Source: Caldilineales bacterium (lineage in GTDB: Bacteria; Chloroflexota; Anaerolineae; JAAEKA01). Taken from it: a stretch of 48,081 nucleotides of DNA. This document shows positions 13,911-19,026 of this stretch, in pieces. The stretch spans positions 1 through 48,081 of the forward strand of contig JANWYQ010000175.1 in the NCBI GenBank assembly GCA_025055015.1. The letters run 5' to 3'. Position numbers and translations under genes: made by a program. The notes under the pieces are model-generated. The model was not told where the DNA came from and made no database searches. It saw only the letters and a list, made by a program, of their open reading frames with translations. Numbering within the stretch: the first letter of the stretch is position 1; each line of letters opens with the position of its first letter.

Positions 13911-13960
13911 GGAGAGAGTCGGTGGAGGCCGTGGAGTCGCGCGAGAGTCTTTGGAGAGAG
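13911..13960 (+). repeat. Phased GGAG/GAGAG motif cluster
   Basis: GGAG or CGAG starts at 13911, 13924, 13933, 13942 and 13953, spacings of 9-13 bases. It contains GGAGAGAGTC and AGAGTCTTT, both also present upstream of the split STAND operon (17629-17638, and the complement of 17611-17619). This may be a shared regulator-binding region. Confidence 0.35.
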
Positions 13961-14068
13961 AAAGGATAGCTCACGGCGGCCGAAGTTGGCTATACTTTGG
14001 CTAGCGACCGACAAGTGGGCGACGTTCAACGACTGGCACCTTGAATATGTAGACGGAACCGAGCTACC

Positions 14069-14623
14069 ATGCGTGCTACGCACCCCGAGGTGTTGGTGCT
14101 CTGGGCGGAGCGCTTCGACGAGGCCGCAACCGTGCGTTTCGTCACGGCCTTTCGCAAGGCCGGCCTGCGCACCAAGCTGGTCAGCCTGGGCAGCCGCCCC
14201 TCCGCCGGCGCTCATGGCCTGGTCCTCTTGCCCGATTGGACGCTGGAGGAGGCGCTGTCAAAAGCCCGTGGGGTGCGGTGTGTGGTGGTGCCGGCGCCCG
14301 CGGCGGGCTTTCAGCGGGTGACCAACGATCCCCGCGTCGAGGCGCTGTTGGGATGGCTCTCGACCCAGGACCCGCTGTTGATCGTCGGACCGTTGGAGGC
14401 GAGGCCGATGGCGCAGCGCATGGGGCTGTCGTTTGTGGACTGGGGCGAGGACGAGGAAAGGGACCAGATCATCCAGCGCGTGATCAGCTACATGGCGACC
14501 ACTTCGTCGGCGCCGAGCGAGCAGCAAGGACATCCGGAGGAAACTCAGCCGGGTTTGGCCGAGGAGGCAGAGACGTCTGTCCCGTGGGACGGTGCACAGC
14601 CCTCGCAGGTAGACCCCAGTTGA
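14069..14623 (+). CDS. Degenerate DJ-1/PfpI-like protein of unknown function
   Basis: 184 residues. The first ~115 can be laid along the DJ-1/PfpI fold: VLVLWAERFDEAATVRFVTAFRKAG, then KLVSLGS, a GAHGLVLLPDWTLEEAL stretch, VVVPAPAAGFQRVTNDPRVEALLGWL, then DPLLIVGP. The nucleophile elbow that should read AICxGP is shortened to LIVGP, so the catalytic cysteine is absent. The partner glutamate also appears to be replaced by alanine. The usual second half of the fold is missing, and the last 60 residues are Glu/Pro/Ser-rich and probably disordered. Enzyme activity is therefore unlikely; a binding or regulatory role is possible. It ends 116 bases before the small secreted peptide gene on the same strand, so the two could be co-transcribed. 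Confidence 0.55.
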   Translation: MRATHPEVLVLWAERFDEAATVRFVTAFRKAGLRTKLVSLGSRPSAGAHGLVLLPDWTLEEALSKARGVRCVVVPAPAAGFQRVTNDPRVEALLGWLSTQDPLLIVGPLEARPMAQRMGLSFVDWGEDEERDQIIQRVISYMATTSSAPSEQQGHPEETQPGLAEEAETSVPWDGAQPSQVDPS

Positions 14624-14911: not shown

Positions 14912-16174
14912 CTAGGGACCGCCTTGGGGCTCTAGCGTCTGCCCATCGGCCGCGGGGTCGAGACGCGCGGCCAGGGCGGCGAACTGCGTCGTCACCCACC
15001 TCGGCGGGTGGTCAACGCCGTCGAGGAGCGTCCTTGCGCGCACCAGGGAGGCTGCAGCCTCGCTTTGGTGTCCCAGGTCCAGGAGCACCTCGGCCAGGTT
15101 GGCCAGCGCGCCAGCTGCGCTGGTTCGGTCGTCCAGCTCCAGGTACAGCTGCGCGGCCTGCTGGTAGGCTTCCCTGGCCTCCTCGCGGCGGCCCAGGTCG
15201 GCCAGGAAGACGCCGATGTTGTTCTTGGTGTGGGCCTGGTAGAGACGATCGCCCAGACGGCGGAACACCGGCTCTACGGCCTGGTGCAGCTGGAGCGCGT
15301 GCTCGGTGCGCCCAAGGATGTCGTGGTAGAAGGCCCCCAGGTTGACCTGGGTGCGCGCGGCGTGGGGATCGTCTCCCAGCCGGCGGTAGAGCTCCAGCGC
15401 TCTGAGAAAGTATGCCTCGGCCTCGGGGCGGCCCATCTCGTAGTAGAGCTGGCCCAGGTTGTTGAGAACCTTGGCCTGGCCCCGCACGTTGCCTAGGCGA
15501 GCGAACAGCGCCTCGGCCTGTCGGTAGTGCGCCTGCGCCTCCTCCGTCCGCCGCAACCGGCTGGTCACAAGGCCCCAGTTGTTGTAAAGCAGCGCCAGCT
15601 CGGCCAGGTCATCCTCGGCCAGCACGGACGCCGCCTCCGCACAACATCGGTCGGCCGCCAGCACGTCTCCGGTGTGGAGGTACACCTGGCTGAGGTGGGC
15701 CAGAACCCGGCCGACGCCCGCCGGACGGCCGATGGCCCGGTATCGCTCTAGGGCCGCTTCGAAGTAGCGCTTGGCTGCGCCGGTCTCCCCCAAGGTGCGG
15801 GCTATCTCGCCCAGGTTGTCCAGCAGCGCCCCCTCGTGCTCCGCTGCCTCGGCGAGCCCCGCCGCAGCCAGGCGCCGGCACACGGCTAGCGCCTGTTCTG
15901 TCAAGGCGCGCCATAGGCCCAGGTGGCCGCGCAGCTCTGCCAATCTCTGCCCGCTCTCCACCAGGGCGATGCCGCTCTGCCAGGCGCCCTCCTCGCTGAG
16001 CGCCAGCTCGGCTGCCTTGACGATGTTGGCCATCTCCCGCGCCAGAAGTTGGGGGTCGTAGCGATGGGCCTCGACGAACCGAAGATAGTGGTCCGCGTTG
16101 AGGGCGATCTTGCGCCGGAAGCGCTCGCGCAGGTCGGACGTCGCCGGCGCAAGGCTGGCGGCGGCGTCTACCAT
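14912..16174 (-). CDS. Tetratricopeptide-repeat protein, probable sensor half of a split STAND system
   Basis: 420 residues. After an N-terminal helical region (1-80) the protein is almost wholly TPR-like helix pairs, including LLDNLGEIARTLGE, VLAHLSQVYLHTGD, LYNNWGLVTSRL, VLNNLGQLYYEMG, TQVNLGAFYHDI, TKNNIGVFLADLG and ALANLAEVLLDLG. The N-x-G spacing resembles the TPR sensors of Rap/NprR-type and NB-ARC-TPR regulators, which bind peptides or proteins. Its ATG (16174) overlaps the stop of the upstream ATPase gene in ATGGTAG, so the two should be translationally coupled. In most STAND proteins this sensor is fused to the ATPase; here it is a separate chain. It is cytoplasmic, with no signal or membrane segment. 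Confidence 0.85.
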   Translation of the reverse strand: MVDAAASLAPATSDLRERFRRKIALNADHYLRFVEAHRYDPQLLAREMANIVKAAELALSEEGAWQSGIALVESGQRLAELRGHLGLWRALTEQALAVCRRLAAAGLAEAAEHEGALLDNLGEIARTLGETGAAKRYFEAALERYRAIGRPAGVGRVLAHLSQVYLHTGDVLAADRCCAEAASVLAEDDLAELALLYNNWGLVTSRLRRTEEAQAHYRQAEALFARLGNVRGQAKVLNNLGQLYYEMGRPEAEAYFLRALELYRRLGDDPHAARTQVNLGAFYHDILGRTEHALQLHQAVEPVFRRLGDRLYQAHTKNNIGVFLADLGRREEAREAYQQAAQLYLELDDRTSAAGALANLAEVLLDLGHQSEAAASLVRARTLLDGVDHPPRWVTTQFAALAARLDPAADGQTLEPQGGP

Positions 16175-17586
16175 CGCAGCACCTCCTCCCGCAGGAACGT
16201 CTCGGTCAGGCGGTGCACGCTGTAGCGACGATGGAACAGATCGCCGCTGACGTTGACCAAGGAGAGGCGAACCAACTGGGCCAGCGCCTGTTCCAGGTCG
16301 GGGCCTTGGACCTCGCAGCGCTGGCTGATGGTGTCCAGGTCAGCCCCCTCTTGGCTGAAGAGGACCAGGGTGGTCAGCACCTCACGTTCCGCCTCGTTCA
16401 GCTGCTCCCACGAGCCCAGGTAGATGTAGCGGTACAGCGCCTCGGCGGCTGCGCCGGAGGCCCTGCGCAGGTTGCCTAGCACCCGGTCCAGGGGAAGCAG
16501 GGCCACCTGGCCGACTACCAGCTTCAGCGCCAGCGGGTTGCCCCCCACGGTGTCGTAGATGGCGCGCAGGTCGCCGTCGGCTGCGGCCGCCATAGATGGC
16601 ACGTTGCACAGCAGCGCCTCGCGGCGCAACAGGCGCAGGGCGTCCTCCTGGCCGAGCTCAGGCACCGTGAAGGGGTAGACGTCGGGCTCGCCGGGGAGGC
16701 TACGCCGCGAGGTCAGGACAAAGCAGGCTGGGTGGGCCAGCCTTCGCAAGGCAGGCAACAGGGCGCCCACGTCCTCGAGGGTCTCCAGGTTGTCCACCAC
16801 CACCAGCGTGCGCGTCCGGCTGAAGTGCTGGCGCAGCAGGGGGAGCGCCCGCTTGACCGAGAACGGCGCAGGCAGCTCCGACAGCGGAATAAGCTGGTGC
16901 GCCAACTCCTCGACGAGATCCTCGGAGGTCAGGGCGGGGGTGGCAAGGCTCTCAACGAAGCCGGCGGTGTGGAACGCACAGCGCCGCGCGCTCACCCACA
17001 CGGCGGCGGCGAAGGCCGACTGCTCGGCGGTCAGTCGCACGGCCAGGCGATGGGCCAAGCTGCTCTTGCCGATGCCACCGATGCCGAACACCCCGATGAT
17101 GGCGGGAGCCATCTCCTTCACCACTCGCTCCAGGTGATCGAGGTGAGGCTCTACGCCCACGAGATAGCTGTAAGGGGGCGGGGGCAGGCAGGACTTCGTG
17201 AGGACGGTCGCTGCCTCGACAGCGCCGTACTCCATGCCCTGGACGATCTCGGCCAGCCGTTCCAGCGCACGGCCTTGGCGCTTGAACAGGGTTGCCGGCG
17301 CCAGGTTAATCTCGTTGCCGACCACATGAGCAGGTTTGTTGTCCAGGAAGCGCTTGCGCAGCAGGAGGGCGTGGTCGGGCAGCTCTTGCTCCAGCACCTC
17401 CAACGCCTCCAACAGCACCTGGTTGGTGGCCAGGCGCACGTTGACACGACCGCCGGAGAGCGCGCTTCGTACCACGCGCAGGTGCGCCAGAGGGCTGCCG
17501 TGGCTAGCGTCTTTGTGCCAGAGCTTCAACGCCTGGTGGATCTGTTCGACCAGGCGGGGGTCTACCCGCCGCTGCTGAGAGCTCAT
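16168..17586 (-). CDS. HTH-NB-ARC (STAND) signal-transduction ATPase
   Basis: 472 residues. The N-terminal part (about 55-115) contains LLLRKRFLDNKPAHVVGNE followed by LAPATLFKRQGRALERL, which looks like a helix-turn-helix of sigma-70 region 4 type and would be the DNA-binding output. The NB-ARC core follows: P-loop GIGGIGKS (168-175), Walker B LVVVDN (261-266), TSRR (292-295), GGNPLAL (348-354), a winged-helix region, and VHRL (457-460) at the place of the MHD motif. The protein ends there, and the sensor TPRs are in the overlapping next gene. Such proteins act as ATP-driven oligomerising switches. The ATG at 17586 has no clear ribosome site. Likely a transcription regulator; target unknown. 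Confidence 0.82.
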   Translation of the reverse strand: MSSQQRRVDPRLVEQIHQALKLWHKDASHGSPLAHLRVVRSALSGGRVNVRLATNQVLLEALEVLEQELPDHALLLRKRFLDNKPAHVVGNEINLAPATLFKRQGRALERLAEIVQGMEYGAVEAATVLTKSCLPPPPYSYLVGVEPHLDHLERVVKEMAPAIIGVFGIGGIGKSSLAHRLAVRLTAEQSAFAAAVWVSARRCAFHTAGFVESLATPALTSEDLVEELAHQLIPLSELPAPFSVKRALPLLRQHFSRTRTLVVVDNLETLEDVGALLPALRRLAHPACFVLTSRRSLPGEPDVYPFTVPELGQEDALRLLRREALLCNVPSMAAAADGDLRAIYDTVGGNPLALKLVVGQVALLPLDRVLGNLRRASGAAAEALYRYIYLGSWEQLNEAEREVLTTLVLFSQEGADLDTISQRCEVQGPDLEQALAQLVRLSLVNVSGDLFHRRYSVHRLTETFLREEVLRW

Positions 17587-17606: not shown

Positions 17607-17660
17607 CAGTAAAGACTCTACGCTAAAAGGAGAGAGTCTGTAGAGTTACTGGAGAGATCA
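17607..17660 (-). promoter_or_regulatory. Inverted-repeat region upstream of the split STAND operon
   Basis: AGACTCT (17613-17619) and AGAGTCT (17633-17639) are a perfect inverted pair, 13 bases apart. GTAGAGTTACTG (17640-17651) is close to the complement of 17607-17621. With GGAGAGA at 17651-17657 this makes a compact cluster 25-75 bases before the ATPase start, a candidate binding site for autoregulation. I see no strong promoter hexamers. Confidence 0.4.
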
Positions 17661-18260
17661 CCCAACGCAAGTTGTGCTAGAGTGTACCGTAGAGAGAGCC
17701 ACTAGCTATGATCGCTCCAAGCGCTGCGGCGAGACGGGGGTTATCGCCGACCAACGGCGCTGGAGACCGCGTCAGCGAGGGCCGGGCCCAGGGTCTTGCC
17801 CTCGCTGTTTATTTCCTCCGGTTTGTCCTGGCTGCCCTCGCACGGCGCCGCTAGCCGGCCTAACCGTCGGAGGCTGCCTTCACGAATCCGCCTTTGAGAG
17901 CGGCCGCCGTCAGGCGGCGGCGTCGCTGTTGCCCAACCAGCTCGTCGTGCTGCCCCCTGGGTGATCTCCTGCCGACCGCTACAAACACATCTACGACGCC
18001 CACCGGGCGCACAAGGGCCGCCCTTCGCACAAGGGTCTCGGCCTCGTTCCGGTCCACACCCACAGGCATCTCCGCAGCCGGCGAGAGGATCTCCCTGGCA
18101 ACTCGCATTATATCCGGGTTGGGGTAAAGGAAAAAAACTCCGTTGGCGGCCGGGCGGTTCAGAAAGGACGTAGGCCAACGAGAGCCGCCGGCGCCCCTGC
18201 GAGGGGCTCCTTGGCAGCCTGGGACGACGGCATCGGCCGCTGGCTGTTTGTGGGCAGCGA

Positions 18261-18269
18261 TGCTATACT
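18261..18269 (+). promoter_or_regulatory. Extended -10 promoter giving a leaderless lutA-like transcript
   Basis: TGC-TATACT is an extended -10 element with no recognisable -35. Seven bases after it comes the ATG at 18277, where transcription would be expected to begin, so the mRNA would have essentially no leader. Confidence 0.55.
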
Positions 18270-18276
18270 TCTGCCC

Positions 18277-19026
18277 ATGCACGAACCGCCGCGTTTCTCG
18301 TCTGTCGCCCTCTTCGTCACCTGTCTGGTGGACCTGTTTCGCCCGGAGGTGGGCGAGGCTACCGTGGCCTTGCTGGAACGCCAAGGGTTGACGGTGGAGT
18401 TCCCCACCGCACAGACCTGTTGCGGCCTGCCGGCGCTCCAGGCCGGCCTCCCCCACGAGGCGACCGAGCTGGCCCGGCGCTGGGTGGAGATCTTCGAGCC
18501 CTATCCTGCCATCGTGTCCCCCTCCCCGGCCTGCGTGGCCGCAGTGCGACAGGAGTATCCTCGCCTGTTGGCCGACGACGAGGGATGGCGACGGCGGGCC
18601 GAGGCCGTGGCCGCGCGCACCTACGAGCTCAGCGAGTTCCTCGTGAAGGCGCTGGGTGTGGCCGACCTCGGCGTCCAGGCCGGCAGGGCCGGCGGCAAGG
18701 TCGCCTACCAGCCGGCGTGCCAGGCGCTGCGCAGCCTGGGCGGCGATGGCCCGGCGCGGGCTCTATTGGCCGCAGCGCACGGGATCGAACAGGTATCCCT
18801 GCCCGACGAGGAGGTGTGCTGCGGCTTTGGCGGCCTGTTGGGGGCCAGCCTGCCCGGCCTGGCGGAGGCCATGGGCGACCGCAAGGCCAGAGACATCGAG
18901 AACAGCGGCGCCGAGGTGGTGGTGACCACGGAGACCGGCTGTCTGTTGCAGGTGGCAGCGGCGCTGGCCCGTCGCAAGAGCCCTTGCCGCGCCCTGCACC
19001 TGGCCGAGCTGTTGGCCGGCGAGTAA
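18277..19026 (+). CDS. LutA/YkgE-like (Fe-S)-binding CCG-domain protein
   Basis: 249 residues, near the ~240 usual for LutA/YkgE, a subunit of the iron-sulfur lactate oxidation complex. It has two cysteine-rich modules: C16 with CCGLPA at 48-53, and C148 with CCGFGG at 181-186. The usual His in YHxxCH before the second module is Gln in YQPACQ, so cluster binding may differ. The open frame extends upstream to 18211, but MHEPPRFSSVALFVTC at 18277 is the family-like start and a TATACT box sits just before it. The partners LutB and LutC are not adjacent, so lactate oxidation is not assured; it may serve another CCG-dependent dehydrogenase. Confidence 0.82.
   Translation: MHEPPRFSSVALFVTCLVDLFRPEVGEATVALLERQGLTVEFPTAQTCCGLPALQAGLPHEATELARRWVEIFEPYPAIVSPSPACVAAVRQEYPRLLADDEGWRRRAEAVAARTYELSEFLVKALGVADLGVQAGRAGGKVAYQPACQALRSLGGDGPARALLAAAHGIEQVSLPDEEVCCGFGGLLGASLPGLAEAMGDRKARDIENSGAEVVVTTETGCLLQVAAALARRKSPCRALHLAELLAGE

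Follow-up and report, generated by a model that had tools for sequence, protein, structure and literature searches.

A pair of overlapping genes, here called A and B, lies on the minus strand of contig JANWYQ010000175.1 of a Caldilineales bacterium (Chloroflexota; GenBank assembly GCA_025055015.1), whose 48,081 nucleotides were analysed as a whole and are referred to as the window. The product of gene A combines a helix-turn-helix (HTH) domain resembling region 4 of sigma-70 with an NB-ARC ATPase switch, composed of a nucleotide-binding domain (NBD), a helical domain (HD1), and a winged-helix domain (WHD), and that of gene B is built of helices and a superhelix of tetratricopeptide repeats (TPRs). 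The sensor repeats, which STAND proteins usually carry on the same polypeptide, are here encoded by a separate TPR gene. It appears almost certain that this A/B split is a genuine and conserved two-chain design.

The gene pair and its domains

The first-pass annotation, made from the DNA letters alone, had described a chain of HTH and NB-ARC parts that ends just past an MHD-like VHRL motif. The frames and residues agree with this description, as the C-terminus of A reads ...YSVHRLTETFLREEVLRW and the stop comes 12 residues past VHRL. The TPR sensor was said to occupy a separate frame starting inside the stop of A. The B frame is indeed separate and overlaps that stop, but the wording is slightly loose: the ATG of B starts 4 nt ahead of the stop codon of A, in an overlap of 7 nt that includes this stop. 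A perfect AGGAGGT, located within gene A and 6 nt 5′ of the ATG, gives B its own Shine-Dalgarno sequence. The coordinates are collected in Table 1.

Table 1. Features of the A-B locus and its surroundings, in positions of the window
Feature	Position	Strand	Description
Gene A	16168-17586	-	472 aa; sigma-70-region-4-like HTH and NB-ARC (NBD-HD1-WHD), ending directly after WHD
Sigma-70 region 4-aligned part of A	17236-17439	-	residues 50-117; hhalign
Walker A, GIGGIGKS	17062-17085	-	residues 168-175; G168, G170, G171, G173, K174 invariant 29/29
Walker B region	16783-16806	-	residues 261-268; D265, N266, E268 invariant 29/29
MHD-like VHRL	16207-16218	-	residues 457-460; H458, L460 invariant 29/29
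Junction	16168-16187	-	Shine-Dalgarno AGGAGGT 16181-16187; ATGGTAG overlap 16168-16174; read from sequence
Gene B	14912-16174	-	420 aa; N-terminal helices, then TPR superhelix
Array upstream of A	17630-17656	-	CTCTC-N6-CTCTA-N6-CTCTC; about 44 bp before A
-10-like TAGAGT	17678-17683	+	offset 21 from A array; points away from A
Second array	13932-13969	-	about 100 bp upstream of gene D
TATACT box	13991-13996	+	offset 21 from D array (row L189)
Gene D	14069-14623	+	184 aa, DJ-1/PfpI-like; PF01965 5.7e-6, just above cut-off

By domain, motifs, and fold (Z 19-23), A is a STAND/NB-ARC NTPase. It matches Pfam NB-ARC at 2.5e-10 (40.5 bits against a cut-off of 23.5), and the invariant motif residues were read from an alignment of 29 A relatives. 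The segments at residues 168-175 and 261-268 are Walker A and the Walker B region, and VHRL corresponds by its position to the MHD motif. NCBIfam gave neither A nor B a specific family, and PADLOC returned two weak matches for A (0.0096 and 0.058) and general TPR models for B, likewise with no specific family.

The place of the cut was examined in an AlphaFold model of A (mean predicted local distance difference test score, pLDDT, 87.4). The model aligns through its last residue, 472, with NRC1 (to residue 494, Z 23.1) and with Apaf-1 (to 452, Z 21.8), and its residues 133-472 align with residues 7-335 of chain C of 8bob (Z 19.1, rmsd 3.8, 304 aligned). According to its title, 8bob concerns the maltose system, and its chain C is taken here to be MalT. 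In PMC4381067, residues 336-806 of MalT are described as an arm-sensor polypeptide that binds the inducer by itself, and the arm as alternating between the NBD, which it keeps closed, and the liganded sensor. Because A ends where the nucleotide-binding oligomerization domain (NOD) of 8bob chain C ends (335) and the MalT arm-sensor begins at 336, the natural split corresponds to that between NOD and arm-sensor, and in the predicted model the cut falls at the border of the two.

Gene B matches Pfam TPR_12 at 3.2e-32. Its model (pLDDT 92.7) is all-helical, with helices at residues 11-104 (15863-16144) followed by TPR helices, and its top Foldseek matches are TPR domains, such as that of LGN. Residues 11-104 appear arm-like by their position in the model.

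With regard to the N-terminal domain of A, residues 50-117 align with region 4 in 13 Sigma70_r4_2 proteins of the same genome at an hhalign probability of 95-96%, with E values for the domain of 1.9e-8 and 3.8e-9 as single comparisons. The TIGR02937 match of A is weak (0.098), and an OmpR-type DNA-binding domain or bacterial transcriptional activation (BTA) domain gave no Pfam match in A at E up to 1. The same domain (about residues 8-125) forms the C-terminal end of membrane proteins of 627-763 aa at seven loci (E 4.8e-15 to 3.9e-18). A Pfam scan of one of them showed HisKA_7TM at the N-terminus and, below threshold, Sigma70_r4. Since the domain thus occurs at one end of two sensor architectures, a role as output domain fits. 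The membrane proteins in question (L166-L172, e.g., L170:3768-5702 on the minus strand) are possibly membrane-anchored transcription regulators.

Conservation of the split and pairing of A with B

Fused and split homologues were counted, as the first-pass annotation had proposed. Among 85 A genes, 82 stop within 25 residues beyond the aligned profile, and 73 have a same-strand TPR gene within 600 bases; of the remaining three besides the 82, L163 and L164 are fused and L057 is cut short by the end of its contig. The best 80 of 260 related stretches had been kept, 28 of them (L032-L058 and L069) for neighbourhood work. Five duplicate loci (L034, L038, L041, L045, and L069) were removed before the 85 were counted, near-identical pairs from different assemblies (L043/L044 and L047/L049) were retained, and L133, an A gene broken by an in-frame TAA, was counted once.

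In 199 related genomes, the 51 best matches (E<=1.8e-42) are all open frames of 436-590 aa by hand count, one of which, in G053, has an in-frame TAA. All are thus of split length, which is the opposite of the uniformly fused closest homologues that would have pointed to a frameshift. The match ranked after them, in G078, reaches 1034 aa through an N-terminal extension, with the C-terminal cut still present. In 400 genomes drawn evenly from the phylum there were 13 matches of at least 240 bits, all 13 with open frames of 462-573 aa; below 240 bits most frames, not all, are longer. Up to eight candidates per genome were scored in the 199-genome search and up to four in the 400-genome draw. In addition, the window's own genome holds a second A-B copy on contig C69 (56% identity for A and 50% for B), which is likewise split, with an ATGA junction.

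On a tree of A proteins, built from a quick search with L133 excluded, the label split or fused changes 3 times, against a shuffled mean of 16 to 17, and all 39 rows of the starred clade to which the window's gene A belongs are split. The fused L163, a distant relative (31% identity), is nested in a 9-row starred clade whose other 8 rows are split, and is probably a secondary fusion. Other fused relatives are L164 and cyanobacterial proteins in the tree, of 772-874 aa. Within L163, residue 508 is the last covered by the A profile and residue 519 the first covered by the B profile, so that A and B in tandem are colinear with a protein made as one chain. The gene itself (L163:7257-9947, plus strand) encodes 896 aa of HTH-NB-ARC-TPR and has retained an upstream 11-bp array of the kind described below (p 0.01).

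The junctions were compared in 70 pairs, 3 of the 73 having been dropped, with the B starts picked by a purpose-made score. B starts at or before the A stop in 43/70 pairs and within -30 to +15 of it in 49/70, and 37/70 have a Shine-Dalgarno core of 4 or more bases. The B start takes one common phase relative to the A stop in 55 of the 70, as might be seen if a programmed -1 frameshift yielded an A-B fusion besides both chains. Such frameshifting is nevertheless very improbable: only 2 of the 70 pairs have a slippery heptamer in the last 60 nt of A, overlaps of the types ATGA, ATGxxTGA, and TAATG produce a common phase anyway, and in some pairs the chosen B start lies 100-300 nt past the A stop. 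A recent frameshift or sequencing error that cut a fused gene in two, which the first-pass annotation had asked to be considered and for which the existence of fused relatives and a start/stop overlap tight enough for a single indel might be cited, is rejected as next to impossible in view of the 82 relatives cut at the same domain border, the entirely split clade, the split second copy, the Shine-Dalgarno sequence of B, and the distance of L163.

The trees of A and B correlate with r 0.75 over the 51 of 73 pairs with full-length B, and the maximum of 2000 permutations is 0.27. When B was exchanged between paralogues within a genome, r 0.75 was matched in 0/3000 trials, and in the paralogue-swap subset (27 rows from 13 genomes) 1/3000 was as good. 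On the strength of the mirror tree and the swap test, the partners look cognate and co-inherited. The window's genome contains two A genes and two paired B genes, and a profile search at E<=1e-25 yields just those two B. An exchange of sensors, which the first-pass annotation had thought a split might allow, is therefore not supported by the mirrored trees, the swaps, or the paired copies.

Direct-repeat arrays and the genes beside them

Direct repeats with a lag of 11 bp occur upstream of 26/73 A genes, compared with 10/376 control genes, at p<=0.02 (Fisher 3e-15). Up to 350 bp upstream were covered, with 200 dinucleotide shuffles each; the controls were the 376 other genes of the same loci, and 12 of the 85 A genes had been dropped beforehand for a profile start beyond 60 or for upstream sequence that was short or N-rich. 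At the same threshold, 12/73 A upstreams show a lag of 22, and lags 9, 10, 12, and 13 are found in 2-7. The controls exceed the expected 2% at other lags (23/376 at lag 9 and 21/376 at lag 12), but not at lag 11. Further support for the lag of 11 comes from its harmonic at 22, from the control genes, and from the way the arrays are phased to a -10-like box. Enrichment of 6- to 8-mers in the spacers between D and A gave nothing exceeding shuffles.

In the window's clade the repeat unit is CTMTM-N6, and across 31 loci the similarity of units tracks the relatedness of A (Mantel r -0.38, 0/5000). The pattern has three matches in the window (two exact and one with one mismatch) at two places, with 0.04 expected from shuffles. 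In the 4.14-Mb genome, exact triple matches are found at four places: upstream of A, of its paralogue, and of D, and on contig C97. A hand count over ten other genomes gave 31 distinct array places, 10 of which adjoin an A gene. Read backwards, the pattern gives counts near its own (3 against 6 in G000, 4 against 3 in G001, and 15 against 22 in G099); since CTATC and CTCTC stay unchanged when reversed, this was judged to be no independent control, and the significance of the arrays was taken from shuffles and control genes.

A TANNNT box lies exactly 11 bases past the last unit in 15/36 arrays and at 21-23 bases in 13/36, while every other offset from 8 to 33 is represented 0-2 times. The 36 distinct arrays include near-copies from related genomes; minisatellite-like and locus-end arrays were excluded. 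Owing to these fixed offsets, the arrays resemble promoter elements whose reading direction is that of GATAG. The array on C97 (L193:5501-5538, in G000, the window's own genome) has TATACT at offset 21 and is followed by a small open reading frame of about 140 aa with no Pfam match above cut-off; immediately ahead of the array is the end of a CAP-domain gene.

Gene D is probably a target or an associated component of A-B. A D-family gene is located within 3.5 kb of 27/85 A genes, in 24 cases upstream and divergent, and two of these A genes share their D with a neighbouring A. In 12 genomes picked for having a D gene near A, there are 34 PF01965 matches, of which 16 are no more than 3.5 kb from an A gene and one more (G180) is 5.7 kb away; the strongest, canonical matches in these genomes, compared by hand, lie away from A genes. 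The catalytic Cys, at the ICHG position of five canonical DJ-1 rows, is absent from 25/25 D-family rows that cover the site, row L123 being too short to do so, and most D proteins are without the canonical C-terminal stretch. The window's D is convergent with B, yet has its own 11-bp array and TATACT at offset 21. At L130, on the other hand, D stands behind A on the same strand, B is missing, and the array faces A-D with TATGCT at offset 11. Taking the window, divergent, and L130 layouts together, D is downstream of an array in three gene orders. Strict blastp (1e-10) gave, besides A/B, six neighbour clusters of 3-4 loci, and the DJ-1-like gene emerged as a general neighbour only by profile.

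Elsewhere, the genes in the GATAG direction encode an NlpC/P60 protein, a beta-helix protein, a vWA protein, and SpoVS, and several array-side proteins look exported, judging from signal peptides recognised by reading. The array-preceded genes away from A possibly form a regulon. Arrays before such genes were recorded at L224-L242 (genomes G099, G004, G003, G002, G067, and G118), including those of NlpC/P60 and SpoVS, and some of these places are minisatellite-like. The array upstream of the window's gene A points into 17674-18274 (plus strand), about 600 bp without a convincing gene, followed by a CCG-domain gene at 18274-19026; the gap could hold a small gene that was missed, correspond to a long leader, or be what is left of a lost D gene.

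Proposed mechanism, competing readings and known systems

We consider it fairly probable that A and B together constitute a two-chain STAND transcription activator that works in the manner of AfsR or MalT. The results obtained by computation are the conserved split with its exact place, the joint inheritance of both genes, and the repeat arrays, which are phased to a -10-like box. We infer that A binds the arrays and activates transcription, with B as an inhibitory sensor or removable brake. The location of the repeat sites beside genes suggests that the neighbouring genes are turned on by A-B.

In the proposed mechanism, A would supply the HTH domain and the full ATPase switch (NBD-HD1-WHD), B would supply the arm-like helices and the TPR sensor, and the gene overlap would couple the translation of B to that of A. 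In the resting state, B would be docked in trans on ADP-bound A and hold it closed, as the MalT arm does in cis. A ligand on B would cause B to release or re-dock, and A would swap its nucleotide and oligomerise. The aligned HTH domains of ATP-bound A could then recognise direct repeats spaced by one turn of DNA (11 bp) and placed shortly before the -10 box, and the gene on the -10 side would be switched on, namely D in the window, and D or other genes, some for exported-looking proteins, elsewhere. More tentatively, A-B may be a natural two-component switch of the NLR type with a separate, dissociable arm-sensor, in which A polymerises on the repeats and its HTH domain replaces the -35 contact; the pairs might then form a Chloroflexota family with an operator code of its own and a dead DJ-1-like protein as a recurrent target or feedback partner.

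Several observations weigh against the activator reading. The 11-bp period was first noticed by eye in a printout of spacers and tested afterwards, 47/73 A upstreams lack a lag-11 array at p<=0.02, and A genes with D divergent and near pass at a rate of 6/21, compared with 20/52 for the other A genes. In the generic period test the array of the window's own A is not significant (p 0.12; that of the paralogue, 0.005). No 11-bp array was found upstream of the seven membrane-protein genes with the same HTH domain, and no MalT appears among the 50 matches listed for the B model, although helices occupy the arm's position at residues 11-104. Moreover, 21/31 array places lie away from A genes, so other binders of the arrays are possible, and 7/85 A genes (L126, the third copy of L115, L124, L037, L130, L042, and the second copy of L046) have no B within 600 bases even though the sequence there was covered, so B may be shared or lost in some genomes.

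The last two points also favour a reading in which A and B are separate genes, B is an independent TPR adaptor, and another regulator binds the arrays and controls A too. This is unlikely in light of the mirror tree and paralogue-swap test, the colinearity of A and B with the fused L163, the shift of the repeat unit with A relatedness, and the enrichment of lag 11 at A genes but not at other genes of the same loci. It is also improbable that A-B is an NLR-like immunity or cell-death switch whose N-terminal domain recruits an effector instead of regulating transcription. The nearest solved folds (NRC proteins, Apaf-1, and CED-4) would suit such a role, as would the distant split relatives L162 and L165, which by reading carry other N-terminal parts, and ECF-like HTH domains are known in conflict systems (PMC8195603). 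However, the N-terminal domain of A is sigma-region-4-like and is also found as the last domain of membrane proteins, A genes are flanked by repeat arrays, the PADLOC matches are weak or general, and no neighbour cluster besides A/B exceeds 4 of 28 loci plus the window. By reading, L162:2688-5768 (plus strand) has an ATPase plus DUF4062-like part at its N-terminus, and L165:7718-9742 (minus strand) a nucleoside-phosphorylase-like part, so that a split NB-ARC/TPR arrangement may have a use in conflict systems as well.

As a proposed activator, A-B can be compared with several known systems. MalT, the STAND activator of Escherichia coli, shares with A the NOD fold and the NOD/arm border, but is one chain and has its DNA-binding domain at the C-terminus. 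CED-4 and Apaf-1 share the NB-ARC fold. CED-4 is not known to have a C-terminal repeat sensor and is restrained by a separate protein, CED-9, and the CED-4/CED-9 complex is named among the structure matches of A; CED-4 carries a CARD, CED-9 is not known as a TPR protein, and, unlike those of A-B, their genes do not overlap. The NB-ARC part of 6mfv, a STAND protein with a TPR sensor, aligns with A at Z 18.6 over 274 residues, but its NOD and sensor are contained in one 641-residue chain. In PMC10936776, AfsR is described as a single chain with the order DNA-binding domain-NOD-arm-TPR, and the target promoters of Streptomyces antibiotic regulatory proteins (SARPs) as containing direct repeats with a spacing of 11 or 22 bp, of which the final one keeps a constant distance to the -10 box. 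AfsR and the large SARPs of Streptomyces resemble A-B in domain order and in the 11-bp repeats at a fixed distance from -10, whereas AfsR is one chain with an OmpR-type DNA-binding domain and a BTA domain, and A-B consists of two chains with a sigma-region-4-like HTH domain. With its different DNA-binding domain, A-B is not a SARP, but may work in a SARP-like way.

STAND transcription regulators and promoters with 11-bp repeats are already known; a clade-wide split between NOD and arm-sensor, with a sigma-region-4-like domain, was not found described in searches of open-access papers. The restraint of the ATPase half of STAND/NLR proteins by the sensor half has usually been studied by cutting a single chain; here evolution placed the cut at the border of the MalT fragment and retained it throughout the clade. 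Because the halves are two natural proteins, the resting contact, how a ligand releases it, and the stoichiometry in the open state can be measured directly. The 11-bp arrays offer a ready readout and, if A binds them, would also provide a list of candidate targets in Chloroflexota.

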